Source: a virus. From it: DNA of 64,000 nucleotides. This document shows positions 18,661 through 52,718 of this stretch, piece by piece. Numbering within the stretch: position 1 is the stretch's first letter; the number at the start of each line of letters is the position of its first letter. Made by a program: the position numbers and the translations under genes. A model generated the notes under the pieces. It was not told the DNA's origin. It was given only the letters and a program-made list of their open reading frames with translations, and did not search any database. The stretch spans positions 1-64,000 of IMG/VR virus record IMGVR_UViG_3300046373_000136. One strand, given 5' to 3'.

Positions 18661-18675
18661 TCTGTATTCCCCTGA

Positions 18676-21276: not shown

Positions 21277-21289
21277 CTTGTTTCCTTGA

Positions 21290-23323: not shown

Positions 23324-23324
23324 A

Positions 23325-24344
23325 TTAAACACCGTCCAGTGAACGTGGGATGATCAACGTGATCGGACCCGGATTGAAACCGTCACCAATTGCCGTTGCC
23401 ACATTGAAGGCAGCAGGCAAAGTGATCGTGCGAGCAAAGTTGGTACCACCAGAAATTTCCATGGTCCAGACACCCGTGGCAGGATCAGCCACCACAATAG
23501 GTGAGACCGTAGTCATGTTGACGAGCACCACAGTGATGTCGATACCAGAAGTGCTCTGCGTCATGGAGCCGGCATAGTCAGCCGTCAGGATGACCACACC
23601 ATCTTTCTTCAACTTGAGCTTTTGCGCTGTACCGAAGGCCGTGATGATTGCGTTGGCACCAGCAACCCGTTTAGCTCCGACTACCGCAGCAGCCACCGCA
23701 GCCTGATATGCCGTGAAGCTCGTGGTATCAAATACCGTCTGTGGTGTTGGCGTTGGATCAACCGGAGGAATAACCACACCACCGGATTCCCAGGCATAAG
23801 CACCTTGGATCGAGTCCGTGTTGTTGACGATGGTCGTGTTATTGATCGTCGTGCCGCCTCCGGTACCGGTACCAGAACCATTCGGGATAGGTACCCAGCG
23901 ATAGGCACCAGCCCGATAGGCCAGCATCGTTTCATCCGTAGCACCAGGAGGCAGCGTGGATTCCGTTGCAGGACCGGGAGGTCCAGGCGGCAGGAAGAAA
24001 CGCAGTTTGGTATGACCCACAGTCCCTACATCAACCACTGCCGGAGCCTGACCGTAGGGAATGGCCACAGCTTCTACTGCTTCGACCGAACCAATACCAT
24101 CAAGTCCTTTTGGACCTGTTGGAATAAAGAAGTTGAATCTTTGGGCAGTATCCGTGGCATCCGGGTCTTCTTCGACACGGGCATTGCTACCGGCCGGCAG
24201 AGTAGTCGTGGAACCTGCATGCACTGTCAGCTTCGGATACTGGACCAGGCCCAATGCATCTCGAAGCAGTTGCTTTTCTTGTTCGGTAATCTGGCGACCG
24301 TTGATGGTCACCCCCTTATTACCGGGTGGTTCATAGTTATTCAT
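23325..24344 (-). CDS. Tail fibre / adaptor protein with collagen-like segments (339 aa)
   Basis: Start placed at ATG 24344 (MNNYEPPGNKG), which follows TGGAGTTAAAG; a TTG four codons earlier is possible. Two copies of an attachment motif are visible: RFNFFIPTGPKGLDG and KLRFFLPPGPPGP, each ending in a short collagen-like Gly-x-y run, then a Gly/Thr/Asn-rich linker (GTGTGGGTTINNTT). The C-terminal 140 residues look beta-structured. The motif is common near the N-terminus of phage fibres, so this may be the adaptor that carries the three spike proteins encoded downstream. Confidence 0.7.
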   Translation of the reverse strand: MNNYEPPGNKGVTINGRQITEQEKQLLRDALGLVQYPKLTVHAGSTTTLPAGSNARVEEDPDATDTAQRFNFFIPTGPKGLDGIGSVEAVEAVAIPYGQAPAVVDVGTVGHTKLRFFLPPGPPGPATESTLPPGATDETMLAYRAGAYRWVPIPNGSGTGTGGGTTINNTTIVNNTDSIQGAYAWESGGVVIPPVDPTPTPQTVFDTTSFTAYQAAVAAAVVGAKRVAGANAIITAFGTAQKLKLKKDGVVILTADYAGSMTQSTSGIDITVVLVNMTTVSPIVVADPATGVWTMEISGGTNFARTITLPAAFNVATAIGDGFNPGPITLIIPRSLDGV

Positions 24345-24438
24345 CTTTAACTCCAATGACAGGTGGTGAGGGCTTGTGCTGTAGCGGCATCAAGGCTTGC
24401 CACCATTGAGCCAACATGTAAAACGCGATAGGGTTCAT
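24337..24438 (-). CDS. Small ORF (33 aa) between exported HNH gene and fibre gene
   Basis: ATG 24438 overlaps the stop of the upstream gene (ATGA), and its end overlaps the fibre gene start by 8 bases. The peptide begins MNPIAFYMLAQWWQAL, is hydrophobic at first, then Pro-rich and charged. The perfect start/stop coupling on both sides argues that it is translated. It has no recognisable family and could equally be a coupling device. Confidence 0.4.
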   Translation of the reverse strand: MNPIAFYMLAQWWQALMPLQHKPSPPVIGVKDE

Positions 24439-27422: not shown

Positions 27423-29366
27423 ATGACATCACCCTCAGTCGCCCTTCCCACACCCCTCCAAGAGTATGTCCACAAGAGCCGGTACGCACGCTGGATTGAC
27501 AGCAAGCAACGCCGTGAAAACTGGGATGAAACCGTCGCCCGGTATGTTGACTACTTCACAAGCAAGTTCCCCGGCTATCCCCGTCAGCGCATCTATGACA
27601 GCATCGTCAGTCTCAAGACGATGCCGTCTATGCGTGCACTGATGACCGCTGGTCCAGCACTCGAACGTGATCCGATGGCAGGCTTCAACTGCGCCTTTGT
27701 TGCTATCGATGATGTCCGGGCCTTCGATGAAATCCTGTACGTTTTGATGTGCGGCACAGGCATGGGCTTCTCCGTTGAACGTCAGTTCATCGCCAAGTTG
27801 CCCATCATCGGAGCCAAGCCGGTCATGGATGCTGATGGCCTCATGTCCATCGCTACCATTGATGAGCTGACCCCGGTCAGCACCGTCATTCAGGTACGTG
27901 ACTCCAAAGGTGGATGGGCCGATGCCTTCCGCAAACTGATCCAGTCCCTCTATGCGGGGAAGATCCCAACCTGGGATATGTCCAAGATCAGGAAAGCCGG
28001 CGAGAAGCTGAAAGTCTTCGGTGGCCGTGCCAGTGGTCCTCAACCACTGATCGACCTGTTCCAGTTCACCGTGGACACGTTTAAAGGTGCTGTGGGCAGG
28101 AAGCTCAACAGCGTGGAGTGTCACGATCTGGTTTGCAAGATCGCTGACATCGTAGTCGTCGGTGGTGTGCGCCGCTCAGCACTAATAAGTCTGTCGAACC
28201 TGTCAGATGATCGCATGCGTGGAGCCAAGACCGGACAGTGGTGGATCGACAATCCGCAACGTGGCCTGGCCAATAACTCCGCAGCCTACACTGAGCGTCC
28301 ATCAGCCGAACTGTTCATGAAAGAATGGCTCAGCCTGGTGGAATCGAAGTCGGGTGAACGCGGAATCTTCAATCGCCAAGCAGCAATACGCAAGGCACTC
28401 GAAGGTGGACGCCGTGATGCTACCCAGCTCGTCGGCACCAACCCGTGTGCAGAAATTACCCTGCGCTCTGCTGGCCTGTGCAACCTGTCTGAAGTTGTCG
28501 TTCGTGCTGGTGACACACTGGAAGACCTGATGGACAAGATTGAAGTGGCTGTCATCACTGGTACCTACCAGTCGATGCTGACCAACTTCCGTCATGTACG
28601 TGCCATCTGGAAGAACAACCAGGAAGAAGAACGCCTTCTGGGTGTATCCCTGACCGGCATCATGGACCATGAAGTCCTGTCCATCACAGGACTGGAAGCA
28701 GCTTCCTGGCTCCAAAGCCTGAAGCGCCATGCCATTGAAGTCAACAAGGTCTGGGCTGACAAGCTGGGCATCAACCAATCGGTTGCAGTTACCACGGTGA
28801 AGCCATCCGGTACCGTATCCCAACTGGTCGATTCGGCCTCCGGCATCCACCCACGGTATTCGGAGTTCTATATCCGGACTGTGCGTGCAGACAAGAAAGA
28901 CCCGCTGGCTCAGCTCATGCGTAGTCAAGGCTTCCCCGTCGAAGACTGCGTGACCAAACCTGATACCACGGACATCTTCAGCTTCCCAGTGCAAGGTCCA
29001 GCACATGCGGTGTTCCGCAATGACCGGACTGCCATCGAACAGCTCGAACATTACCTGATGGTGCTGGACAATTTTGTCGAGCACAATGTCTCCATCACGG
29101 TGTATGTGAAAGATGAAGAATGGCTGGAAGTCGGTGCGTGGGTGTACAAGCACTTCGACAAGCTGGCCGGTGTTTCTTTCCTGCCGCACAGCGATCACAG
29201 CTATCGCCAAGCACCCTACACCGAATGCGACAAGGCAACCTATGAAGCCCTGCTGGCAAAGATGCCTGTAATGGACTGGGAAGCCCTGGCCAACTTCGAG
29301 AAGGATGATGCGACAGTTAATACGAAAGAGCTGGCTTGCTCTGGCGGCGTCTGCGAGATTCTGTAA
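27423..29366 (+). CDS. nrdJ: Class II (B12-dependent) ribonucleoside-triphosphate reductase
   Basis: 647 residues, similar to monomeric adenosylcobalamin-dependent reductases such as the Lactobacillus leichmannii enzyme (739 aa). NPCAEI gives the thiyl-radical Cys 342 and Glu 344. Cys 353 in AGLCNLS lies 11 residues on, the same spacing as C408/C419 of that enzyme, and Cys 90 in GFNCAF is the other redox partner. The C-terminal CSGGVC (639, 644) matches the shuttle pair C731/C736. It reduces NTPs to dNTPs without oxygen dependence but needs host cobalamin. The start follows GGAAATGAAAGATAAGA. Confidence 0.93.
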   Translation: MTSPSVALPTPLQEYVHKSRYARWIDSKQRRENWDETVARYVDYFTSKFPGYPRQRIYDSIVSLKTMPSMRALMTAGPALERDPMAGFNCAFVAIDDVRAFDEILYVLMCGTGMGFSVERQFIAKLPIIGAKPVMDADGLMSIATIDELTPVSTVIQVRDSKGGWADAFRKLIQSLYAGKIPTWDMSKIRKAGEKLKVFGGRASGPQPLIDLFQFTVDTFKGAVGRKLNSVECHDLVCKIADIVVVGGVRRSALISLSNLSDDRMRGAKTGQWWIDNPQRGLANNSAAYTERPSAELFMKEWLSLVESKSGERGIFNRQAAIRKALEGGRRDATQLVGTNPCAEITLRSAGLCNLSEVVVRAGDTLEDLMDKIEVAVITGTYQSMLTNFRHVRAIWKNNQEEERLLGVSLTGIMDHEVLSITGLEAASWLQSLKRHAIEVNKVWADKLGINQSVAVTTVKPSGTVSQLVDSASGIHPRYSEFYIRTVRADKKDPLAQLMRSQGFPVEDCVTKPDTTDIFSFPVQGPAHAVFRNDRTAIEQLEHYLMVLDNFVEHNVSITVYVKDEEWLEVGAWVYKHFDKLAGVSFLPHSDHSYRQAPYTECDKATYEALLAKMPVMDWEALANFEKDDATVNTKELACSGGVCEIL

Positions 29367-33173: not shown

Positions 33174-34016
33174 ATGGAAGACTTCTCCCAAGAATTTACG
33201 CAAGGCAAGATCAAGGATGCAATGAAACTAGCGAATGCTGGTTCCAGTGATCTGTGGATGGTTCCACCCCATCAAATTTGCATCAAGGATGGATTCAACA
33301 TCCGGACACGCAACCAAGCCTACGAGGACAAGGTTCTCTGGCTCATGGAGCAGATCAGCGTCAACGGCTTCGACCGTACCAAGCCGATCCCTGGTTTCGT
33401 GGCACTCGAAGACGGCAACAATGTCATCTACGCCATTGGCGGTCACAGACGCATGGAAGCGGTCCAGAGGCTCATCGAAGATGGGATGGAGATCGATGCT
33501 ATACCCATGGTCATGAAACCCCGTGGCACCTCCATGGAAGACCTCACAGTCGATCTGTACACGGACAACGAAAGTGATCCGGTGGACATGCTAGGCCAGG
33601 CTACTGCCGCCAAGCGCATGATCGGCTTCGGCACACCTGAGAAACGGATTGCCGAGCGCATGGGATGGTCACTTGAAAAGGTGAATGATTTACTCTCGCT
33701 GGCCTCCGCACCTTCGGCGCTACGCCAGCTCGTAGCCGAGGAAAAGGTAGCCGCAACTGTAGCTATCGACACCATCAAGAAGCATGGTGACAAGGCACTG
33801 GACAAGCTGCATGCAGCGTTGGCCAAGTCCAATGGCAAGGTGACTGCCAAGCACCTGGATACACCTGAAATTCTGTTCAAGAAGTATGTCAAGAAGCAGG
33901 CCCCTGTTCTGTTCAACACCTTGATTAAGGTACAGGCTGATCCTGGCTTCCAACATCTGTCAGAAGAAATGCAGATATTGGTTCTGGACTTGGTACACAA
34001 CGTCAAGCAGAAGTAG
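33174..34016 (+). CDS. ParB-like nuclease-domain / DNA-binding protein
   Basis: 280 residues. Residues 60-125 form the ParB N-terminal fold with the nucleotide-binding AIGGHRRMEA motif (GGHRR at 89-93). A helix-turn-helix-like region (KRIAERMGWSLEKVNDLLSLA) follows near 160-180. Phage ParB-like proteins serve in replication or transcription control. N4 has a ParB-domain gene in the same cluster. GAGGAAATA precedes the ATG. Confidence 0.85.
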   Translation: MEDFSQEFTQGKIKDAMKLANAGSSDLWMVPPHQICIKDGFNIRTRNQAYEDKVLWLMEQISVNGFDRTKPIPGFVALEDGNNVIYAIGGHRRMEAVQRLIEDGMEIDAIPMVMKPRGTSMEDLTVDLYTDNESDPVDMLGQATAAKRMIGFGTPEKRIAERMGWSLEKVNDLLSLASAPSALRQLVAEEKVAATVAIDTIKKHGDKALDKLHAALAKSNGKVTAKHLDTPEILFKKYVKKQAPVLFNTLIKVQADPGFQHLSEEMQILVLDLVHNVKQK

Positions 34017-34567: not shown

Positions 34568-35296
34568 GTGTCCGAAGGAAATAAGAACGTCGTGCTGGTC
34601 ATCGGACCACCGAACACTGGCAAGTCCACCTCACTGATGAAGCTGTCGAACCAAGACGAATTCGTCTACATGAATACGGACCTGAAGGAACTCCCATTCA
34701 AGCACAGCTTCATGGCCAGCGTCGAAGTCTCCGATCCCATTGATGTGCTCACGTACATTGACGAGATCGAGACCAACGATGCAGCCAAAGGCGGCGTGCT
34801 TGATACCATCACCTTCCTGATGGGCATGTACGAGCGCATGTACGTGAAGACCAGCGCCGATACCCAGAAAGCCTGGGGCGGCTATGGTGACTTTTACCGT
34901 GACTTCATCCACCGTATCAAGTCCGGCACCAAGGACTACGCCATCATGGGTCACACCGACACCGTGTATGACGAAGTGGCCTTGCAGAACGTCACCAAGG
35001 TGCCTATCAAGGGTGCAGTCGGCAAGATCGGTGTGGAAGCAGACTTCACCACCATCCTGTCCACCAAGCAGGTGCCCATCAAGTTGCTGGAAAAGCTGAA
35101 GATCGAAAACGATCTGCTGCACATCACGGACAACGAACGTGAAGACGGTTTCAAGTATGTCTTCTGCACCCGCGTCACCAAGGAATCGCTGGGCGAGAAG
35201 ATGCGCTCTGCCATGGGCCTCTGGAACCGCAACGAGCTGTACATCGACAACGATCTGGATCAGGTCTTTGCTCGTTTGAAAAAGTATTACGCCTGA
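34568..35296 (+). CDS. RecA/AAA-like NTPase, GTG start (242 aa)
   Basis: GTG start behind AAAGGAAACATC. Walker A is IGPPNTGKST (12-21). A Walker B-like VLTYIDEIE lies near 60, and a sensor-like YAIMGHTDTVYDE near 138. This resembles the P-loop NTPase (RecA-like, AAA_24 type) often found directly upstream of the SSB in N4-like and other phages. It probably helps load or remodel recombination or replication proteins on DNA; its exact partner is unknown. Confidence 0.78.
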   Translation: MSEGNKNVVLVIGPPNTGKSTSLMKLSNQDEFVYMNTDLKELPFKHSFMASVEVSDPIDVLTYIDEIETNDAAKGGVLDTITFLMGMYERMYVKTSADTQKAWGGYGDFYRDFIHRIKSGTKDYAIMGHTDTVYDEVALQNVTKVPIKGAVGKIGVEADFTTILSTKQVPIKLLEKLKIENDLLHITDNEREDGFKYVFCTRVTKESLGEKMRSAMGLWNRNELYIDNDLDQVFARLKKYYA

Positions 35297-39753: not shown

Positions 39754-42700
39754 CTACTTGAAGACGGACATCGCACCATTCACCGTTGCCAGTTGATCCA
39801 ACGTACTGAAATACCGGAACGCTCCTGTTGTGAGTGGGTTGTTGCCTACCTTCCTTAATGCAGAGCTGTCCAATACAGTTTCACCCAGTTCCCAGATATT
39901 GTCCAGAATGATCGTACCCAACACCCGTGCCGGATTCTCCCGCACCAATCGGATCAGCACCTTCTGGATGCGCAGGAAGTACTTCATGAACGGGATGATG
40001 CCCATGTCATCCACGTATTGTAAAAGTGGATGCATCGGAATGTCATAGTTCACGAAGGCTTCACTGGCTTGCTGGATCGCTTCCTTCTTGCTCAGCGGAT
40101 TCTTTTTCCGCGTCGTCAGGTGTTGATACAGCGCATACCGAGCCACGAAGTCAGACAGTTGCGTTACCCGTGAGAGACCTTGATACAGCTTCGTATCGTG
40201 GGTCATGTAGACGTTCTTCAGCCCACGCTGAATGACCGGATGCAGGTATTGATCCATCTTCTCATCCACGTCCCGAGCAAACTTGCTCCGGTACGAATAA
40301 ATGTCATCGGCTGCGGCCACATCCTCCACAATCGTTGGCATCAGGCCAGCGTCTATCAGCTCCTTGACCGGGTTCCGGGCAATGCTGTCTTCCAGACGGG
40401 TGATTTCATCATCCAGTTCTTTCACACTCCCCTTGATGTAATCAGCACTCCGTGCCAGTTGTAGCCGTGCCAGCTTCTCGCTGTCTTTGCGGTACGCTGT
40501 CGCTCCCCGCAAAGCCACCAGATGACTGTTCAAGTTTTGCCGGAATGGCACACCGGACAAGGCCAGCAACCACATATTCGACTTGATGTTGCCGATCATC
40601 ACCGTACCAGTCTTGACCACCACGATGTCCTTGATCTCCGACACCACAGCGAGCCAGCGACGTTCAAACTGACGCACACGGTGTTCAGCCTTGGCACCGA
40701 AGATTTGCGTGGTCAACTGGATCATCGCCTTGTCCATGAAGCCTTTGTCTTCCTTGTTGAAGGCATCAGCCATGGACAGCTTGCGATAGCCGAACAGGAT
40801 GTTCAGGCTGTCCTTGCGTACCATCATGGCATCCTGCCCCCACACTTTACGGATATCCGCTTGGGTCTGGGCCGGCAGAAGATTCCAGATTTCACGCAAC
40901 GAGGCATCGGCCGAACCAGCACCGATCTTGATGAAGTCGTCTGGATTGTCTGCGAAGGATTTGTTGTATTCCTCCCGCAGCACTTCCACGGCTTTCTTGT
41001 TCTGCACCGGTGTGGCTTGCTTGTCATAGACCGAACCGGCCATCTTGCCCATCAGGTGCTCGAAGCGGTTATCCCGTTCGAGGATCGAGTCCTTCGTGGA
41101 CTCAGCCATCAGGTAACGCCAGTCGGTGATCCGGCCAGCTTCATTGAAGATCGGCGCAGCATGGTTATCCGAACGGTTCGACATCAGCTTCCAGGAGCTA
41201 CCCTTGGTCTGCCGATCCCAGGCCGACATCGCCATGGTGGAGAACTCATTCGGGTTCTCAATCTCCAAACGGCTACCCTTGGCTCCGGTATCGGACAGCG
41301 AGAACGCACCCGTTACACGGCGGCTCAGGCCACCATCCTTCTGCACGTAGATGTGCTTGACGCCACCGTTCGGGTCCAGATTGTCTGGGTTCACACGTGG
41401 TCCTTTGCTATAGCCTTGAGCCACCAGTAGATCACCCAGCTCATTGTTGACCACTTGAATATCAGTGTTCGGGTTGTACACCTCCGGTGTGTAGCCGTGC
41501 ATCATCAATGTTGGATTACCCTTGAACAGCTTTTCCAGGGACTCCGCTTCCATGTGCTTGTGCAGCTTGAGCATGAACTCCACACCGTTCTCCGTGCCCC
41601 GGCCGTTCTCTGCCGACAGCACCGAGTTGGCCGCAGCCTTGTCTGCATCCGAGCTGTAGCCGATGCTGTACAGCGTCACCAGGGCATTGATCGTGGCTTC
41701 GCTTCGGTATGCCTGAATGTGATCGACATTGCCTTCGTACTTGGTGCCCAGCAACCGGCTGATGTTATGGCCATTGGCATGCAGCAGACCACGAACATAT
41801 CCCGTTGCCTTGTAGTAACCCAGTACTTGTGCCTGCTCGATCACGGCATCCTTCAGGCCACGATAGTTGCCCAGCTTGGCTTCCATCTCTCCAATGTGCT
41901 TGTCCAGTACAGCCGGATCAGCCAGCATCGCTTCGATCTGCTTCAGGTCGAAGTGATCCAGCAGGTGATGGGCACCCGAGCGCATGAAGATGCGGGTCAC
42001 ACCGGTCTTCTGTGCTTCGGTCAGCTTTTCACTATCCTTGAACCCGGCCAGGACTGCCGCTGCACCCTGTGTGATGATGTCCTTGCGTTCACCTTCCCGA
42101 ATCTTGGCTTCACGCAAGATTTCCTGGAAGACAACCAAGTGTCCACGCACCTCAGTCACCAGCGAGGCCATCACGCCTTCGCTGCTCTTGAACTCCTTGT
42201 TCCGGATGGTCTTCATACCGTCCAGGAAGTCTTCCACGCGATCATCGGCATAGATTTTGGCAACCACACCGGCTGTCCGGATGAATTGATTCTTGCTACC
42301 GGTGAACAGCTTGGAACCAGCCGCCTTGCTCACAGCAGCACGGCCTTTCTCAGCCAAAGACTTAGCCATGTCTTCGACTGGTTCCAGCATCGCCGTGGTC
42401 ACCGCATTACGTGCCAGCACTTGCTTGCTCTTAGCTTCAATGCTCACCAGTTGCTTGACCAGTTGTTCGAGCTTGGCATCAGCCCGTTGACCAGCGTAGG
42501 TACCGGTGATCTTGTCGGTCAGCAGTTCCAACATCTTCTCGAAGAAACGTTGCAGCTTATCGGCAAAGGAACCACCCGAGGCCATGGTACCGGTGTCGGT
42601 CGAGACCTTCATCAGCTCATTCACCTCAGGGTGGACCAGCGCCATGGCTGCAAAGCGTGCCAGATAATCCGACTGGTTCCCGTTGTCCTTGGTAGGCGTG

Positions 42701-45700
42701 AACAGGAAGTCATGCTGATCCTGTGGCAGCTTGCCTTGCAACAGCGTCTTGGCTTCGGTGTACAGCTTGCCCAGTTGCGCATATGCGCTCTTGGCCGCTG
42801 CATCGTGGCTGTCGAGTGCGGTCTTGATCGTCACTTCCACCTGTTCCAGTGCGAACGCCAACTGGCTCGATACCCGGAACGGCGAAGCAATCGTAGCCGA
42901 GGCAAACGGTACGGCACCCTCTGCTTCAGCGGTGATGAACGCATCCAGTGGTGTCCCGGCCTGACTGTTCATGATCGCTTGACGCAGCGAGCCGAACTTG
43001 CCATGCAACTTCTCCACGATCCCGGTTAGCAGACCGGTGATCCGGCTCTTGTCGGCATCCGACAGGCGACCATCTTCCAGCGCATTGAAGACATCCTGCG
43101 TGCTGTATTCGGTGATGCGCTGTACTGCCATCGACAACACCGTGGCAACCTGGGACTGTGGTCCCTGTTTCTGCTCCGCTGCATGCTTGAACAAGCCGGA
43201 AGCATTGGCAATGAGCATGCCCAGACCGTTGGTCTGCATGTCCGTTGGCGACTTGAACAGATATTTGCTGATCGTGTTGATGAACTTCTGCATGCCAGCC
43301 ACCAGACGATTCTTCGTCGTGCGGCTCTCGTCCAGTTGTATCTTGCTCAGCACTTCCGTTTGGAAGTCCCGGTTGGTCAAGCCCCATGCCAGCAGCTCGT
43401 TGACTTCGGTGACGGCACCGTCGAACTTTGTCAATCCCTTGTCTTCAACATAACCCCGTGCCACGGACAGGATTTCTTCCAGTTCCGAGACCAGTGCCTT
43501 GGCATCCCCGGTTGGATTGATCACAGCCCGTGCCAGCACACTGTGGATCAGCTCATGGATGACCAGTTCAGGCGTCAGGCCCGAGTCCACGAAGTCGGGT
43601 GACAGTAGGTTGACTTCCTGCTTGCTGCCCTTGGCCACATACCAGCCACGGCTGGCTTCAGTAGGCATGGCCAGCACATCCCCTGCCTTGGTCTCCGGCG
43701 TGATGTAACGCACCGTCAGATCGGCCGGGGCCAGTTTGTACAGCACTCGCAGCATGTCGGCTTGCAGCTTGCTGCTCCACCCGCCATCCTTGCGCAACAT
43801 CCCGACCAGTTGCTTGATCAAGTCCTTGACCTGGGGATTCGGATTCGCTTGCAGATAGGAAACTAATTCTGCATTCGATTCGACCACCGGGGAACCAAGC
43901 TGACCAAAGGGGGTGAATACCCCTTGGTTCAAGCTGTCAGCAGCCTGCACAAGCGATTCCACTACCGCATCCTTGTCAGCACCTTCAGGCATGGCGTTAA
44001 TCGCTTCTGCGACGTTCTGGCCAGCCTCAACGGCCTTCTGCAAGTCCCGTGCTTCCTTGGTGTCGAGTTCCGCAGCGACCTGGCCCACTGCCCATGCAGC
44101 GGTTGCCGGTGTGGTCTGCGTCTGTTCGGCGGTGATGACCGGTGCTACTTGCTTCGCGGTGGCGGGTTGTACCCCCTTGACGAACAGTTTGCCCAGCGCA
44201 TCAGCACTTGCTTCCATCGCTTCGGTGAGTGGTGCACCTTCGGCTTCGAGTTCAGCCAGCAGCTTCCGGGCTTCGGCCCGGTCTGCTTCGGTGACATCGT
44301 ACTGCCCGTCTTCCCAGGTGTACTGGTCAATGGCGGTCATCTCTGCCATGGCTTCGAGCCGCACCTTGTTGGCCTTGAATTGCTGACCACGCAGACGCGA
44401 CAGGATATGTACCGGCAGATCAGCCGGCGCTACTTCTTCATCCTGGTACAACAGGGCTTCGAACGATGCCTGAATCTGCTTGAGCACAGCCGGGGAGACA
44501 TCCCCATCCTCTGCCATTTGCAGCACATTCGTCACCGAGCGTTCGAGCATCTGGAACGCTTCCGTTGCTGGGGAGAAAGTCAGCAGGGTTTTCCAGGTGG
44601 CACCATTAATCGCCTTGGCAGTTTCCCGCACCTTGTCGGCACCATTGCCAATCTCGTCATGCACGTTCATCGCTTCGATGAATTGAGCCAATGCCCGATG
44701 CATGATGGCCGAGTCAGACGAGTGCATGAAGTACGGCAGTCCAGCCGCACCGGGACCGACTTCACGTCGTTCCATGGAGCTGGCCTTCATCGCTGTGACT
44801 GGCTTGCCTTCGGCATTAAGCACTGGTGTAGCGAACTGGGTCTTGGCATATCCATACGGCTGTGTGCTACGACCATTGCTGGTCTTGGCCATATACAGAC
44901 CGGCATTCAGATCCCCTTCGGCTTGGCTGTAGGCGGTATGTGCTTGTGGCAACACGTGCGCTACCTTGGCATCCAGCGCCGCTTTCTGTGTGGCGTTCAT
45001 GCCATGCACCGGGACACGATCAGTCGTACCGTCCTTGCGCTTAACATCACGGTAATCGATTTCACCGGCTTCCATCAGCCGGGTCATTTCCTTGGCTTCC
45101 AGATCACGATACAGCGCATCGTAGATTTCAAAGGAAGTCTGGATTGCCTTGTTCACTGCCGAACGCCGGGACGAGAACACTTTGAAGTAGTTGTTCATGG
45201 TCTCCGTGACCGCTGCACCCATGGTGTTATCAAAGGCATCGTTCATGCTGTCCAGACGTGCCTTGTTCTCCTTGGCATCCAGGTCCAGCACCATCAGTTG
45301 TTCGATGGTCGTGTCTGCACTGAAGGCGTTCTTCCTGCCTACCAGTTGGTTGAGACTGTCGATCAACTGACCACGGCTTGTACTCTTGTCCGAACCATCA
45401 GCAACCGCTTCAATCTTGTCGTAGACCGACTGGATGAAGGCTTCCCGCATGGACAGGACAGATTTCTCCACGGCTGAGCCAAAGGTAAAAGCAGTCAGCG
45501 GTGTCTTGACAATCTTTCGGCCTGCACTGGTGACCTTGTTACCACTCATCAGTTCCTTGGTGAAGGTCTGGATTGCCGTCATGGTGGCCGAGTTCGGCAA
45601 GCCTTTGAGCACATGACTGGCCAGGTCTTCGTACAGGTCCAGGCTGGCATCGTTTTCGTACCAGAGGTTGTAATTCTTCACACCGTCTTCGGCACGATAC

Positions 45701-48700
45701 ATCCCACCCCGATTCAAGCGTGAGAACAGGGCTTTGATCGAGCCGGCCGCACCGAGTGCCAACTGGGACAGGATCGGGCCATTGGTCTTACCGTCCACAC
45801 CGACGAGCATATGTGACTCGAACGTGGCATCGCCCTTGTCCTTGGCATGCAAGTAGGTGCCGTAAGCAACGAGTGCTTGCAAGGTCTGCATCCCTTCGTT
45901 ACCTGCGGCCAAGTCGGCTATCGCCTCCTTGTCCTGGGTACTCAGGGATGCCGTTTCGGGAGAAAGGGTGGCGTCATATAGCTTGGTTGCCAGCGCATCG
46001 ATTCCCTTGGCCTGGACCTTCTTGTTGAAGATGTCCATGCTCTTGCTGTTGCGTTGCTGGTCCACCTTCACGCCCATGGCTTGAGCCACACCGATCAGGA
46101 ATTGTTCCGCATCAGCGGTCTTGATGGTGGCCTTCCACTCCGGACGATAGATCATGAACCGGTGAATCTTCGAGGTCTGTGGGTTCAGATCACGGGTGCT
46201 GATACCAACACGGAAGTTACGCCACACTTCGTAGTTCAGGAAGAATGGTTGTTCCAGCTTCTCTGTACTGTTGGTCAGCGCATTCGTGATCAGTCCCTTC
46301 AGGCTGAGCAACTGGTTTTCCAGGTTCAGGTTTTGGGCTTCGACGCTATCCCGATTCTTCGCATGAATCTTGTCGTCATTGGCTTCCTTCCAGCCGGCCG
46401 CTTTCAGGATCACGTCATCCCCGAGCACGCTCAAGGCATGCCACATGGATGGAATGATCCGGTGCGGTACCTTCTGGGCTTTCTTCAGGGTGGCAGTCTG
46501 TTCCTTGCTCACCTGTTGACCGGTGCGCTTGGCGAACTCCTGCTTGAACGGGATCGGTGTCCAGCTCGCTTCGGTGGGTGTCTTCTCGCTGTCGAACAGC
46601 TTGTCCACCACGCCTTGCGTGTCGGCGTTGGCATCACGGATGGCACGGCTGTCATTCGGCAGTTCCTTGCCGTCACGGACCAAGCTCACATAGGTGATCG
46701 ACTTGTTGGCTTCCATGCTGAATTCCGGCATAAAGTTGGTCAGCACATTGCCCTTGAAGGTCTCGGTCTTGACCAGTTCATTCTTGCGCAACACCTGCAA
46801 GGCATGGATACCAAACGCTGTTGCCAGTCCTGGCAGGTAGTCAAGCGGGGCATCCGGCGTAGCCGAGAGGCCCAGCGCCTTGACGATACGGTCACCCAAA
46901 TCATTAATGACTGCGGTCTCCATTGCCGCCACATTGCGCAAGATGGCTACACCTGCCTTGGTCATCGTATTGGCTTCACCATCCAGACCATGCATCTCCA
47001 ACAGGTCAGCAGCATCTTTGCTCATCGGTGCATGGATGGTGTCGTTGATCCAGCTATACGCCCCATAGGCGATAGCCGTCACCACGTTCTCATCCATGGT
47101 GCCATCAGCATTGAAGAAGTCCTGAAGCGGGTCTTCATAGACGAACTCAGGGTTGACCTGATTGCCTTGGCTGTTCTTGATGCTGCCCTTGATCAAGAGC
47201 GCCTTGATGTCAGCCGACCACTTGGTTGCGAACTTCTGGAAGGTCGTGATCGCCGTGCGCTGCTCATCGGTCAGCCCACCGGGAAACAGGCTGTCTGGTT
47301 CCACGGTTCCGTCATTCATCAGGGTGAGCAGGTTGTTGACTGCGACCAGGGGTTTATCCCGGCCGATGTCTTCATCCTTTTCCACCTTGGCACCCTTCTG
47401 TTTGAGAAATGTTGCTGCCCTATTAATTTTTCGGTACACGGCTCCACGCTCGCCTGGCGGCAGCGTGTTCGCCTTGTCCTGGCCTTGTTGTAATACCGTC
47501 AACCCTGGCTTGGACTGAGAGTCACTTTCAGTGGAATTCTTAGTCGATAAGGGTGCCTCCGGCACCATTGGCGAGATGGATGCGGTAGACTCCGTTCCCT
47601 CAGTAGAATGCAGTGGATTTTTAGTCTTCTCAGTTTCCTGAGTTGACTTTAGTGGATTCTCAGTAGAGCTGCCGGAGGCAGCCTGAGTTAACTGAGTAGT
47701 CACAGCCGGCTGTGCAGCGGTGGACACTGCACTTGGTGAAACACCTACCGGACTTGGCGAGACTGCAACCGGTTGTGCAGGTACCGTAGGTGCTGCTTGA
47801 CCAGACGTTGCAGATGCCGGAGCCGGTTGAACCGCTCCAACAGATGAGTTTCCGCTAGATACTGCTTGTGCCGATGGTAGGTTCTGGACATTCTTGGCTC
47901 CATTGAAACGCAAGTCGATAGCCGCAGCCAACTCTGCCTTGGTTGCAGCAATGGCATCAGCTTCTTTCTGGATCGAGCTGACCAGTTTTTGTGACGCGGC
48001 ATTGACCGTTACCGCACCATTGATCTTTGCTTCCTTGCCTTCGAGGAAATTCGAGTAGCGAATTTCCCATTGCTTAGTGGCATCATTCTTCACCACCTGC
48101 ACCGGTTTGCCCGTGTCTTGATAATCCTGGAAGGCTTCAGCCGTTAGGGTTGCCTTCTGGCTATGTGAAGTTTCGAAGTTGGTCAGCAGATCGAGACTGG
48201 CATTGGCCTTCTTGATTGAGCCAGCACCAATCGCACTAGCTACCTGTTCCCGATACTGGGTCAGGCCCAGGTTGGTCTTGGAACCGTCCACGATTTCCTT
48301 GGACACATCACCCAGACCGCGCAGCTCGTTTTCTGCTACTCGCGTTGCTGCGAACTTGCGCAGGTAATCCTTCTGCGTTTCCGTGGTGGCAGGACTGTTG
48401 ATCAGGGTATTGGCATCGTCTTCCGTGACACGCTTTGGCGACACCATGGAGAGATTGATGATGTTCTCCGCTGCTTGGGCCGCTTCCGGTGCGACGGAGG
48501 CTTCGCCACCGTCTTCCGGCGCTGCCTTAGCTTCGAGTTTGGCGAGCTGGTCTTGCACATCCATGGCGGTGAAGTAGTCGGTCTGGAACCGGTCCATCAC
48601 ACGTTGGGCCTTCTCCACGGACTTCTTGGTACCGGACAGTTCCTTTGCCATGGCCTTTGCTTCCGGCGTGGTTTTGTCTTCCAGTGCGTCATACGCATCG

Positions 48701-50202
48701 GACTTGGCCACATAGTCACCGTTGAACTTGGCCATGATGTCGAACGCTTCCCGGATGTTCTTTTCCTGCACATCCGGTGTGCCATTCTCACGGGAATGCG
48801 TCATGAGTGCCTGGACGGCCTTATCCGGGGCGTAGGCAGGCGATTGCGGGTCAGTCAAGGCCGATACATCACCTGTCTCTTTCGCCGCCGTGTAGGTCTC
48901 CTGAACAGCTTGTGGCACGGGAGCCGGAGCGTCAGCGGCAGGCGACGTGCCAGGTACATGGCTAGGACTGGCCAGATGTACACCGGCTGAGAGTCCACCA
49001 CCGGCTACCGCACCCAGCGTACCGCCGACATAGTTTTCTTCACCGGAGTAGGGCTTGCCCTCGATGTTGCGCTCCATGCCGGTCTGGTAGAACTCGGTAC
49101 CGAATTCACCGACTGCACCTTCACCCACGGCAGCACCAGCACGACCAATCGCGGTCTTCTCAACAGCACCGGCTACCTTACCCGAGCCAGGAATCACCTT
49201 GGCACCGAGCATGAACTTGTCACCCAGTGTTTCAGCCACAGCCAGGGAACCTGCTTTTGCTGCCATGGTAGCCAGCTCATCCCCGGAAGGAATCTGACCG
49301 TTATGGGTCTTCTGGTATTCCTGTACGCCCTTGCTATAGGCTTCCATGGCATATGCCACGTTGGTTGTCGTCATCGCACCACCGGACAGTGCAGCAGCAG
49401 CCAGTTGTGGGGTATTGGATACCACCAACTCCATTGCCGCAGTCGGGTTCTTCCAGGCAGCTTCGCCCACCGTACCGATGAGACCAGCGATCCCTGAAGC
49501 TACATCCATGGCACCGGTTGCACCACCTTTATCCCAGCCAGAGGTGATCTTGGCCATGCCATCTTTATAGCCGGCCTTGGCCGTATTCGTGATGTCGGTC
49601 TGGTTACCCTTGTGAACGATGGACGAGATGTCCGTCTGTGAACGCAGGTCTTCCCCGAACTTCAAAGCTTCATCAACCTTGGCCATGCGTTCCATGTTGG
49701 TCTGCAAGCGGCCGGTCTTGCGTGCTTCAGCCCGAGCCACTGCCTGATATTTGGACAGGGGCCGGTTTTCCGAGATGTCACCATCTGGCAGACTGAGCAG
49801 CTTCATGTCCTCATCAGTCTGCGAGCCGTTCTTGTAACGAGCATGGGCCAGTTTCACTTCTTCTGGCACACCCTGCATTTCGGCTGCTGCCTTCAATGTC
49901 GGTACCATGTTGATGATCTGTGTACCCACCTTGGCTGTTCCATCGGCCAGTGTTGCTGCCATGTTCACCGCTTCACCGGGAATCCCATCGGGATTCAGGC
50001 CCAGCTTGCTAGTCCAGGAATCCTTATTGGCCAGGTCTTCTGCCTGCTGTGCTACCTGATTGCCTGACGTACCATCCACCACGGATTGTAGATCAGCAAC
50101 TTTCTTGTTGGCAGCACGGCCCAGATCACCGAGCTTGTCGCCTTCAGTAATGCTGCTGCCGTATTTATTGGTCAGGTAAGCGTCAAGGTTGAATTCAGAC
50201 AT
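39754..50202 (-). CDS. Virion RNA polymerase (N4 gp50-like giant ejected protein)
   Basis: 3482 residues, the size of N4 vRNAP (about 3500), which is packaged and injected to transcribe early genes. T7-type motifs lie in the middle third. A D/TxxGR-like region (WRNFRVGIST ... LNPQ) is near 1327. Motif A is VGVDGKTNGP (D1470), motif B is RKIVKTPLTAFTFG (R1562, K1566, F1574) and motif C is NVHDEIG (D1849). The K-to-D distance is 283, against 281 in N4. Phe replaces the motif B Tyr. The first 450 residues hold an amphipathic Ala/Gly-rich region that may aid membrane passage. HELIH at 2216-2220 with NELLAW (E2269) suggests a zincin-like domain. Linker 810-900 is Ser/Thr-rich. Last gene of the late block. 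Confidence 0.92.
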   Translation of the reverse strand: MSEFNLDAYLTNKYGSSITEGDKLGDLGRAANKKVADLQSVVDGTSGNQVAQQAEDLANKDSWTSKLGLNPDGIPGEAVNMAATLADGTAKVGTQIINMVPTLKAAAEMQGVPEEVKLAHARYKNGSQTDEDMKLLSLPDGDISENRPLSKYQAVARAEARKTGRLQTNMERMAKVDEALKFGEDLRSQTDISSIVHKGNQTDITNTAKAGYKDGMAKITSGWDKGGATGAMDVASGIAGLIGTVGEAAWKNPTAAMELVVSNTPQLAAAALSGGAMTTTNVAYAMEAYSKGVQEYQKTHNGQIPSGDELATMAAKAGSLAVAETLGDKFMLGAKVIPGSGKVAGAVEKTAIGRAGAAVGEGAVGEFGTEFYQTGMERNIEGKPYSGEENYVGGTLGAVAGGGLSAGVHLASPSHVPGTSPAADAPAPVPQAVQETYTAAKETGDVSALTDPQSPAYAPDKAVQALMTHSRENGTPDVQEKNIREAFDIMAKFNGDYVAKSDAYDALEDKTTPEAKAMAKELSGTKKSVEKAQRVMDRFQTDYFTAMDVQDQLAKLEAKAAPEDGGEASVAPEAAQAAENIINLSMVSPKRVTEDDANTLINSPATTETQKDYLRKFAATRVAENELRGLGDVSKEIVDGSKTNLGLTQYREQVASAIGAGSIKKANASLDLLTNFETSHSQKATLTAEAFQDYQDTGKPVQVVKNDATKQWEIRYSNFLEGKEAKINGAVTVNAASQKLVSSIQKEADAIAATKAELAAAIDLRFNGAKNVQNLPSAQAVSSGNSSVGAVQPAPASATSGQAAPTVPAQPVAVSPSPVGVSPSAVSTAAQPAVTTQLTQAASGSSTENPLKSTQETEKTKNPLHSTEGTESTASISPMVPEAPLSTKNSTESDSQSKPGLTVLQQGQDKANTLPPGERGAVYRKINRAATFLKQKGAKVEKDEDIGRDKPLVAVNNLLTLMNDGTVEPDSLFPGGLTDEQRTAITTFQKFATKWSADIKALLIKGSIKNSQGNQVNPEFVYEDPLQDFFNADGTMDENVVTAIAYGAYSWINDTIHAPMSKDAADLLEMHGLDGEANTMTKAGVAILRNVAAMETAVINDLGDRIVKALGLSATPDAPLDYLPGLATAFGIHALQVLRKNELVKTETFKGNVLTNFMPEFSMEANKSITYVSLVRDGKELPNDSRAIRDANADTQGVVDKLFDSEKTPTEASWTPIPFKQEFAKRTGQQVSKEQTATLKKAQKVPHRIIPSMWHALSVLGDDVILKAAGWKEANDDKIHAKNRDSVEAQNLNLENQLLSLKGLITNALTNSTEKLEQPFFLNYEVWRNFRVGISTRDLNPQTSKIHRFMIYRPEWKATIKTADAEQFLIGVAQAMGVKVDQQRNSKSMDIFNKKVQAKGIDALATKLYDATLSPETASLSTQDKEAIADLAAGNEGMQTLQALVAYGTYLHAKDKGDATFESHMLVGVDGKTNGPILSQLALGAAGSIKALFSRLNRGGMYRAEDGVKNYNLWYENDASLDLYEDLASHVLKGLPNSATMTAIQTFTKELMSGNKVTSAGRKIVKTPLTAFTFGSAVEKSVLSMREAFIQSVYDKIEAVADGSDKSTSRGQLIDSLNQLVGRKNAFSADTTIEQLMVLDLDAKENKARLDSMNDAFDNTMGAAVTETMNNYFKVFSSRRSAVNKAIQTSFEIYDALYRDLEAKEMTRLMEAGEIDYRDVKRKDGTTDRVPVHGMNATQKAALDAKVAHVLPQAHTAYSQAEGDLNAGLYMAKTSNGRSTQPYGYAKTQFATPVLNAEGKPVTAMKASSMERREVGPGAAGLPYFMHSSDSAIMHRALAQFIEAMNVHDEIGNGADKVRETAKAINGATWKTLLTFSPATEAFQMLERSVTNVLQMAEDGDVSPAVLKQIQASFEALLYQDEEVAPADLPVHILSRLRGQQFKANKVRLEAMAEMTAIDQYTWEDGQYDVTEADRAEARKLLAELEAEGAPLTEAMEASADALGKLFVKGVQPATAKQVAPVITAEQTQTTPATAAWAVGQVAAELDTKEARDLQKAVEAGQNVAEAINAMPEGADKDAVVESLVQAADSLNQGVFTPFGQLGSPVVESNAELVSYLQANPNPQVKDLIKQLVGMLRKDGGWSSKLQADMLRVLYKLAPADLTVRYITPETKAGDVLAMPTEASRGWYVAKGSKQEVNLLSPDFVDSGLTPELVIHELIHSVLARAVINPTGDAKALVSELEEILSVARGYVEDKGLTKFDGAVTEVNELLAWGLTNRDFQTEVLSKIQLDESRTTKNRLVAGMQKFINTISKYLFKSPTDMQTNGLGMLIANASGLFKHAAEQKQGPQSQVATVLSMAVQRITEYSTQDVFNALEDGRLSDADKSRITGLLTGIVEKLHGKFGSLRQAIMNSQAGTPLDAFITAEAEGAVPFASATIASPFRVSSQLAFALEQVEVTIKTALDSHDAAAKSAYAQLGKLYTEAKTLLQGKLPQDQHDFLFTPTKDNGNQSDYLARFAAMALVHPEVNELMKVSTDTGTMASGGSFADKLQRFFEKMLELLTDKITGTYAGQRADAKLEQLVKQLVSIEAKSKQVLARNAVTTAMLEPVEDMAKSLAEKGRAAVSKAAGSKLFTGSKNQFIRTAGVVAKIYADDRVEDFLDGMKTIRNKEFKSSEGVMASLVTEVRGHLVVFQEILREAKIREGERKDIITQGAAAVLAGFKDSEKLTEAQKTGVTRIFMRSGAHHLLDHFDLKQIEAMLADPAVLDKHIGEMEAKLGNYRGLKDAVIEQAQVLGYYKATGYVRGLLHANGHNISRLLGTKYEGNVDHIQAYRSEATINALVTLYSIGYSSDADKAAANSVLSAENGRGTENGVEFMLKLHKHMEAESLEKLFKGNPTLMMHGYTPEVYNPNTDIQVVNNELGDLLVAQGYSKGPRVNPDNLDPNGGVKHIYVQKDGGLSRRVTGAFSLSDTGAKGSRLEIENPNEFSTMAMSAWDRQTKGSSWKLMSNRSDNHAAPIFNEAGRITDWRYLMAESTKDSILERDNRFEHLMGKMAGSVYDKQATPVQNKKAVEVLREEYNKSFADNPDDFIKIGAGSADASLREIWNLLPAQTQADIRKVWGQDAMMVRKDSLNILFGYRKLSMADAFNKEDKGFMDKAMIQLTTQIFGAKAEHRVRQFERRWLAVVSEIKDIVVVKTGTVMIGNIKSNMWLLALSGVPFRQNLNSHLVALRGATAYRKDSEKLARLQLARSADYIKGSVKELDDEITRLEDSIARNPVKELIDAGLMPTIVEDVAAADDIYSYRSKFARDVDEKMDQYLHPVIQRGLKNVYMTHDTKLYQGLSRVTQLSDFVARYALYQHLTTRKKNPLSKKEAIQQASEAFVNYDIPMHPLLQYVDDMGIIPFMKYFLRIQKVLIRLVRENPARVLGTIILDNIWELGETVLDSSALRKVGNNPLTTGAFRYFSTLDQLATVNGAMSVFK

Positions 50203-50294: not shown

Positions 50295-52718
50295 TTACCG
50301 GCTAGTGCCGGGATTCTGTCGCCGGAAGTCTTCCGGGTACTGGGCATTCGGGTCTTCCCAGATGCCTACCTTTTTCGCCTTGGCACCGGCTTCTGCTTCA
50401 GCCAGTTTGGGATCATTCGAGTACCGTCGATACAACCAGGCTGCACCCTTTTCCAGCATCTTCTGATCCACGCCGACACCTTCGACTTCGATCTGGCAAT
50501 AGGACCGGGAGTCCTTGCCTTCACTCGATGATGGTGCCCGTGTGACACGCACGGTGACTTCCTTATTCTCGATCATGTCCTTGAGTATCTTCTTGGACTG
50601 TTCACCGAAGTTCTGGCTGGGCTTGCCGTATTGCATGTGCGCCACTTCCGGTGCATCGATACTGTCGATCCGGCAGTTCAACTTGTTGCCATCCTTGGTG
50701 GTCAGATTGGCGCCATCACCGTCACCGACATAGGTCACCATCGCCCGTTGTCCACCCGGCTTGGCTGCTTGAACAGCCGTAACCGGAGGAGACCAATTCA
50801 CATCCTTGGGAATCTCCACTGGGGAATTCGACTTTGAAGGGGCACTGGAACCAGAGATACTGACAAAGCTCGTTTCCTTTACCGTGGCAGCGTCATCACC
50901 TGGACGAGACAAGGCCGGAGCCACCTGATCCAGTGTGGGATTAACAGTGCCTCGGCCCCCTTCGACACTGGGGTTGGCCGGCAAGCTGTTACGCCGAGCC
51001 ATGGACACCATGTTGGCTGCACGGGTACCCGATTGCACATAGTTTGGGTCTTCGGCATAGCCACCTGCCTTCAGGCCGGAGAAATAAGCCTGGGCATCCT
51101 GGGTATTGAGGGCACCGGCATAGCGTCGATTGCCGAGTAGGGTACTGAAGTCATTGGCGAAACCATCGGCATCATTGTATTTCCGGTACTTGTCTACCGA
51201 GCCGTTCATGTTGTCCTTGGCTGCGACACCATTCCCGTTCTTGGAGAAGTCCTTGATATTGCCGAAGTTATTGGTGCCAGGGATGACGGACTTACCCCAG
51301 CCAGTTTCCAGGCCCCATTGACCGATGACGGCATCCACAGGCACGCCGAGCTGCTGCGCAACTCGCTCAGCCTGTGGTCCCACCTGTTTCATGAAGGCCG
51401 ATACCCGTTCTTGCTGGGTACCGGAAATGGGTGCAGTAGGTGTGCCTGAAGGCACATTACTTATTTCACTACTTTTTTTTTGAGCCTCCGTTAGCGCCGG
51501 TCCTGCGAAACTCGAACTTAATGGAGATAGTCGATCCGTGGTTGCCCGCAGCACTGCTTTGACTTCCTCAATTCGCTGCTTGTCCTGGTTCGATGTATTG
51601 TCTTGGCCGGTAACGGCTGACTTGTGGCCAAAGCGATTTTGCAGGATGTTGGCGAAGTCATCACCACGCCGGCTGAAACCGATAGCCAGTGGGTTATCCG
51701 TGGATTGTTCCACAGCCTTCAGTGCATCCGTGACGGAGATCGGCATCTTGATGGGCTTACCATCCTTATCCGTACCCACTTCGATACCACCATCACGGAA
51801 GTACTTGTTCAGGTTGTACAGGATGTCGCTCTGCTGCTTCTCATCGATACCCCGAGCTTTTAGCCCTTTCATCAGGGCTTCTTTACCTGCTTCGGTATCA
51901 AGTGTACCCGAAGCCATACCCGAGTTTTCAAGTAGTTGCTTGTAGGCTTCTTTCTTGCCCAGTTCCAGCTTGTCGTTCTGGGCCTTACGCAGAGCGGCAG
52001 CTTTCTCATCAGACTGTGCTTGATAGTGCAGTTTTTCTGCATCAGCACGGGTTTGTGCCACACCCAGTTGACCACGACTGATATCCACGTTGGCCGCAGA
52101 GTTTGCAATCTCGCCTTTGAGTTTATCCACCATCAATGGACGATCTGCTGTTTTCCAGTCGAACTCAGTATTAATCCGTTGATCCGAAGTGTTCTGACGG
52201 GTCAGATCACGCTTGAATGCAGCGATCTCATTGGCCTGTGGCATGGAGGGGAAGTTAGCCAGGATTTGATCTCCGGCCGCTGTATCACCCCGTAGATAGG
52301 CGGCTTTGGCTTGATCAGCCAGTGGTTGATGGGCCACCACATCCTGTTGGACACCAAACTGCTGTTCTTTGGTCAAGTTGTCACGCAGGATGCCAGGACG
52401 GGCATCTTCCGCAGCGTTGACTGCATTGCGGTCAAACTGGGCACCGAAGCCTGCCTTCATCTCAGCCAGTGCACCGGACTGTTGCAGAGCTGCCATTTCC
52501 TCTGGCGACTTCGCTCCCCGCAGTGCATCCATCAATGCCTGAGTATTGTTGACCTTCTGGTTCTGCCAGTTGGCATCCTGATTGTCAGTGACCATGCCCA
52601 GCGTCTTCTGTAGAGCAGCGAAGCCGGCATTAAGATCGGCACTAGCAAAGCGCATGGGTTGGGCAGCTTCAGCCGGCGTAGGGCCGGTGACATTGCGCCA
52701 GGTAATTGGCTCAGCCAT
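50295..52718 (-). CDS. Virion protein: GH73 glucosaminidase fused to staphylococcal-nuclease domain
   Basis: 807 residues. Residues 1-430 are a helical, Gln/Ala-rich structural part. Residues 439-575 resemble FlgJ-type beta-N-acetylglucosaminidases (GLETGWGKS, catalytic Glu 471; NNFGNIK; FSTLLGNRRY). Residues 659-800 are an SNase fold keeping every catalytic residue: D668 in GDGDG, R683, D688 and E691 in RIDSIDAPE, and R738, with the GAAWLYRRY and KKVGIW ends. It lies between internal-virion-type genes and vRNAP, so it is probably in the particle and ejected: the glucosaminidase would open peptidoglycan. The nuclease role is open. An A9 run lies in the linker at residues 413-416. Confidence 0.85.
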   Translation of the reverse strand: MAEPITWRNVTGPTPAEAAQPMRFASADLNAGFAALQKTLGMVTDNQDANWQNQKVNNTQALMDALRGAKSPEEMAALQQSGALAEMKAGFGAQFDRNAVNAAEDARPGILRDNLTKEQQFGVQQDVVAHQPLADQAKAAYLRGDTAAGDQILANFPSMPQANEIAAFKRDLTRQNTSDQRINTEFDWKTADRPLMVDKLKGEIANSAANVDISRGQLGVAQTRADAEKLHYQAQSDEKAAALRKAQNDKLELGKKEAYKQLLENSGMASGTLDTEAGKEALMKGLKARGIDEKQQSDILYNLNKYFRDGGIEVGTDKDGKPIKMPISVTDALKAVEQSTDNPLAIGFSRRGDDFANILQNRFGHKSAVTGQDNTSNQDKQRIEEVKAVLRATTDRLSPLSSSFAGPALTEAQKKSSEISNVPSGTPTAPISGTQQERVSAFMKQVGPQAERVAQQLGVPVDAVIGQWGLETGWGKSVIPGTNNFGNIKDFSKNGNGVAAKDNMNGSVDKYRKYNDADGFANDFSTLLGNRRYAGALNTQDAQAYFSGLKAGGYAEDPNYVQSGTRAANMVSMARRNSLPANPSVEGGRGTVNPTLDQVAPALSRPGDDAATVKETSFVSISGSSAPSKSNSPVEIPKDVNWSPPVTAVQAAKPGGQRAMVTYVGDGDGANLTTKDGNKLNCRIDSIDAPEVAHMQYGKPSQNFGEQSKKILKDMIENKEVTVRVTRAPSSSEGKDSRSYCQIEVEGVGVDQKMLEKGAAWLYRRYSNDPKLAEAEAGAKAKKVGIWEDPNAQYPEDFRRQNPGTSR

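Follow-up and report, generated by a model that had tools for sequence, protein, structure and literature searches.

The stretch of DNA that we analyzed (hereafter the window) comprises the first 64,000 nucleotides of the 78,154-base virus record IMGVR_UViG_3300046373_000136 and encodes a giant virion RNA polymerase (vRNAP) of the N4 gp50 type (Table 1). The polymerase domain occupies the middle third of this 10.4 kb ORF and matches the virion RNA polymerase family phrog_2206 (E 4.5e-171), and a phmmer comparison of the vRNAP with the N4 vRNAP structures gives E 6e-13. The AlphaFold2 (AF2) model of the domain (mean pLDDT 87.2, pTM 0.83) has as its closest PDB structure the N4 vRNAP 2po4 (Z 29.7, 920 aligned residues, rmsd 4.6); N4 vRNAP entries head its structural matches, followed by the T7 and mitochondrial RNA polymerases. 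The counterparts of the N4 catalytic residues R424, K437, D559, R666, K670 and D951 are all present (R1331, K1345, D1470, R1562, K1566 and D1849, respectively). Three features by which the Schitoviridae gp50 family is recognized are thus found here, namely the sequence-family match, the polymerase-domain fold and a single ORF of about 2,800-3,800 aa, the reference vRNAPs of Schitoviridae being 2,842-3,820 aa long (PMC10654107). The phage further possesses the Schitoviridae gene set of DNA pol A, portal, major head protein and an N4-type RNAPII subunit. The vRNAPs of the phages LUZ7 and LIT1/PEV2 are likewise cysteine-free (Ceyssens et al. 2010, PMC3715699).

Several other genes of the window deserve mention. 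The ORF adjoining the vRNAP gene (50295-52718, minus strand) displays an endolysin-like stretch (phrog_3513) in the middle of its product, which may be an ejection protein carrying a part that cuts the cell wall. A ribonucleotide reductase (27423-29366, plus strand; phrog_367, E 2.3e-175) shows a Pfam match to the insertion domain of the B12-dependent (class II) enzymes, and the replication region codes for a ParB-like protein (33174-34016, plus strand; phrog_1033) and a Sak4-like annealing protein (34568-35296, plus strand; phrog_124). Four consecutive large ORFs of 1,296, 866, 680 and 343 aa lie at 14770-24356 on the minus strand: neither Pfam nor PHROG gives a match for the first two, the third weakly matches a PHROG of unknown function and nothing else, and the fourth is unmatched in PHROG.

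Table 1. Features of the virion RNA polymerase and of the second RNA polymerase of the same phage (positions are those of the window unless stated otherwise)
Feature	Position	Strand	Basis or remark
Giant virion RNA polymerase (vRNAP, N4 gp50 type)	39754..50202	-	3,482 aa, no cysteine; ORF read
Polymerase (mini-vRNAP) domain, residues 930-2010	44173..47415	-	AF2 model and best PDB match
G1468, motif A, replaces N4 E557	45799..45801	-	alignment
D1470, motif A catalytic Asp, = N4 D559	45793..45795	-	alignment
G1475, Gly giving 2′-OH room, = N4 G564, T7 G542	45778..45780	-	alignment; role from PMC11617373
R1562, motif B, = N4 R666	45517..45519	-	alignment
K1566, motif B, = N4 K670	45505..45507	-	alignment
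F1574 (TTT), motif B, = N4 Y678, T7 Y639	45481..45483	-	phmmer, MAFFT, hhalign
G1575, motif B, directly after F1574	45478-45480	-	codon positions
H1827 of HSxD, = T7 H784 (2′-OH contact); Gly in N4	44722..44724	-	motif and alignment
D1849, motif C catalytic Asp, = N4 D951; H1848 just before	44656..44658	-	alignment
N4 RNAPII-type subunit, outside the window	record 73950-75257 (L355:11351-12658)		N4 RNAP2 6dt7, E 4.7e-44

The motif B Phe and its partners in the sugar-reading site

The preliminary description of this locus had reported a Phe where the motif B Tyr is expected, and this is borne out by several lines of evidence. The phmmer alignment sets the window RKIVKTPLTAFTFGS opposite N4 RGIAKNPLTITIYGS, and F1574 hence corresponds to N4 Y678; the column is identical in a MAFFT alignment of the window vRNAP with 23 annotated relatives. 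A comparison with T7-type RNAPs using hhalign, whose match is weak and local (E 0.085) and takes in motif B but leaves out the His region, puts F1574 on T7 Y639. Moreover, F1574 is residue 645 of the AF2 model, immediately past a helix spanning 630-644, where the O helix is expected to end. The alignment with N4-like and T7 enzymes that had been suggested as a check thus places the residue in the Y678/Y639 column, and the coordinates first assigned to R1562, K1566, F1574 and G1575 are all correct.

No matches were returned when the whole vRNAP was searched as a single protein against viral contigs, but alignment-based searches did yield relatives, from which we assembled 271 polymerase domains of Schitoviridae-type vRNAPs that fall into 157 clusters at 85% identity. 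One of these clusters unites Pseudomonas Litunavirus vRNAPs with that of the Photobacterium phage TEMp-D2 (PP852688.1), a record marked UNVERIFIED whose host is possibly mislabelled or which possibly reflects contamination. Across the non-redundant clusters the Y678 position is occupied by Phe in 47, by Tyr in 110 and by no other residue. Among the 23 annotated relatives, Phe is seen in Luzseptimavirus, Litunavirus, Littlefixvirus and Shizishanvirus phages, and Tyr in N4, G7C, roseophages and others. The Phe is therefore clade-wide rather than an oddity of this phage alone, and the rarity implied at the outset is mistaken. Indeed, “Y678F” was already in print for LUZ7/LIT1/PEV2 (Ceyssens et al. 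2010, PMC3715699), the sole paper with this term in the literature searched; the direction given there is the opposite of that of the laboratory Y-to-F mutants, in which discrimination is weakened (PMC6511863, PMC9624206). The codon is TTT in 30 of the Phe clusters and TTC in 17, which looks like the pattern of a conserved Phe under selection. Since so many independent clusters share the residue through two codons, and it has been published since 2010, the 46 clusters besides that of the window rule out a sequencing error at this codon; an error of alignment is likewise discounted by the agreement of phmmer, MAFFT, hhalign and the AF2 model, and we accord the two together a negligible probability.

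In T7 RNAP the choice of ribose depends on G542, which clears space for the 2′-OH, H784, which hydrogen-bonds the 2′-OH, and Y639, which contacts it (PMC11617373). The equivalent of G542 is Gly in every one of the 157 clusters. H1827 appears to be equivalent to H784 by alignment and by the HSxD...HD motif; the equivalence rests on this motif because the hhalign match to the T7-type RNAPs missed the His region. We found that this position is His in 47/47 Phe clusters, whereas the 110 Tyr clusters have Gly in 66 (the N4 type, IGTGD), Gln in 18, His in 16 and other residues in 10. Phe without His was not encountered in any of the 157 clusters, and in several Tyr lineages nested inside the mostly Phe/His clade (e.g., L207, L069 and L076) a Gln replaces the His. 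This companionship of His with Phe is an association found in the present analysis. With F1574 at the Y678 position and H1827 at the H784 position, the window enzyme shows both residues seen in the Phe-type vRNAPs. In T7-type RNAPs, sampled as T7 relatives at ≥55% identity, Tyr and His occur together in 76/76 loci, one extra pattern match being spurious for motif B.

The second RNA polymerase of the same phage, the RNAPII-type subunit, has Tyr and His (RKDAKNALMTSFYG, VVHSMD), unlike the virion enzyme. The phage therefore does have a Tyr-type polymerase, and the change to Phe is specific to the lineage of the virion enzyme.

A further peculiarity is seen in motif A, which reads GVDGKTNG in the window, with G1468 two positions before the catalytic Asp. 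The Glu at this position in N4, E557, contacts the phosphates of the starting NTP and takes them over (PMC4496689). Gly is found here in the window and six other clusters, these seven forming one fully supported clade; outside this subclade Glu is present in 149/150 clusters. A natural guess is that the Gly alters initiation. In a survey of N4-like viruses published in 2023, candidate polymerases had to pass a filter for ExDGxxxG (PMC10654107). Because Gly stands in place of the motif-A Glu, the vRNAPs of the window and its subclade lack this pattern, which is a survey filter and not a biological definition; a whole phage subclade without the motif-A Glu would accordingly be dropped by the published filter.

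The Phe–His association and shared ancestry

We evaluated the association of Phe with His against trees built minus the Phe and His columns and minus column 1468. The Phe clusters are all confined to a single half of the tree, which comprises 82 rows and has 98% support. Within the tree the Phe/Tyr label changes nine times, at least four to five of these on well-supported branches; Phe hence does not trace to one founder event, given at least four to five well-supported gains or losses. Pagel's test for correlated evolution of Phe and His gave a likelihood ratio (LRT) of 24.1 on an 84-tip IQ-TREE tree and 31.6 on a 157-tip FastTree tree. As this test is known to be liberal, we calibrated it with empirical control columns, none of which matched the Phe–His value: 0/123 on the IQ-TREE tree (maximum 17.5; 123 of 209 possible columns tried) and 0/58 on the FastTree tree (maximum 16.7; 58 of 154 tried). 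In the fitted model the rate of Phe gain is approximately 65-fold higher in the presence of His than in its absence, and the rate of Phe loss without His stands at its upper bound.

In background-corrected covariation with F1574, H1827 ranks 4th of 547 columns and the pair falls in the top 0.4% of all pairs, with three columns ranking above H1827 as partners. Covariation with F1574 is also seen for its neighbors A1571 and T1570 and, farther away, for V1531 and M1438. A stricter test, that of independent pairs, recovered four to five well-supported Phe–His pairs and none in the opposite direction, a number too small to reach significance. These results suggest that the Phe–His link goes beyond shared ancestry and is likely real, though not proven.

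Ribose selection by the Phe/His enzymes

In our estimation this protein is probably an ordinary N4-type RNA polymerase of the Phe/His kind, in which the reading of the sugar has moved from Tyr to His. The vRNAP would go into the cell along with the phage DNA and transcribe the early genes from rNTPs. The ribose would fit because Gly1475 leaves room for the 2′-OH; His1827 would be the main ribose reader in place of the hydroxyl of the O helix tyrosine, and the ring of Phe1574 would retain the role in stacking, insertion and translocation. The retention of G1475 and of every catalytic residue is consistent with this proposal. We infer that the His might be sufficient alone, with the preference for rNTPs in the cell normal or just modestly reduced. 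Two observations on T7 enzymes count against such a reliance on His: their Tyr and His invariably go together, and the T7 Y639F mutant shows relaxed sugar discrimination with H784 present (PMC4551944, PMC6511863). Since Y639F is relaxed despite this His, His alone gives incomplete selectivity in T7; for the same reason the selectivity of the window enzyme, too, may be below that of N4, and the use of dNTPs is biochemically possible.

The preliminary description had proposed that a natural Phe signals the use of dNTPs or mixed substrates, or else that the enzyme selects sugars another way. The latter part is favored by the presence of Gly and His in all Phe enzymes and by the Phe–His statistics, while for the former the laboratory Y-to-F mutants are the sole support and the sequence adds none. 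In its fuller form, the former holds that the natural Phe relaxes sugar discrimination, such that dNMPs or mixed nucleotides enter early transcripts or primers, perhaps aiding genome entry or replication. It draws on the better acceptance of 2′-modified or deoxy nucleotides by Tyr-to-Phe versions of the T7, Syn5, KP34 and VSW-3 RNAPs, and on the ribonucleotide reductase encoded in the same genome, which would raise dNTPs. However, the reductase would probably be made too late, the virion enzyme having done its work by then, every Phe enzyme retains the Gly at G1475 and the 2′-OH-bonding His, the second RNAP of the phage keeps its Tyr, and we found no report of this type of vRNAP making DNA; we accordingly consider relaxed discrimination unlikely. 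It is also conceivable that the Phe owes its selection to an effect other than sugar choice, such as one on translocation of the O helix, the kinetics of initiation, metal use or fidelity, or that it is nearly neutral, with the His link reflecting packing shared across the clade. The covariation of A1571, T1570, V1531 and M1438 with F1574 would suit such an explanation, as would the concentration of much of the Phe signal in one 56-row clade. However, Phe and Tyr have switched repeatedly without ever yielding a Phe that lacks the His, and the Pagel LRT exceeds that of all controls, which makes this explanation quite unlikely in our judgment. Finally, the natural Phe/His class might read ribose by His with some members, helped by the loss of the motif-A Glu as in the window's subclade, placing deoxynucleotides in early transcripts or genome-entry primers; this combination strikes us as improbable.

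Replacing the sugar-reading residue by Phe is the classic way to engineer RNA polymerases for the synthesis of 2′-modified RNA. The dozens of natural clusters in which this Phe has long been kept, always with His, thus offer a panel for studying the choice between ribose and deoxyribose, and the Phe-type vRNAPs are a source of natural polymerases to try for modified-RNA synthesis.

Comparison with known systems

The window enzyme has in common with the N4 vRNAP gp50 (2PO4, 3C2P, 9PNQ) the fold, the catalytic Asp, Arg and Lys residues, and the ribose-clearing Gly; N4 differs in having Tyr678, a Gly at the H784 position, FD in motif C where the window has HD, and E557. With T7 RNAP, which is very distant in sequence, it shares the motifs; natural T7-type enzymes combine Tyr with His, unlike the window enzyme, whose pairing of Phe with His is that of the laboratory single mutant Y639F. 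Among named phages, LUZ7, LIT1, PEV2, DEV and their relatives (Pseudomonas phages; Schitoviridae, Migulavirinae) likewise have a giant vRNAP with Phe at Y678 and His at H784. These show ~30% identity to the window across the polymerase domain and retain the motif-A Glu (E557), in contrast to the Gly of the window. That Gly, along with the Phe and the His, is shared by the members of the window's own subclade, the uncultured phages L025, L026, L028, L030, L032 and L245, which are represented by metagenome contigs and are ≤54% identical to the window.
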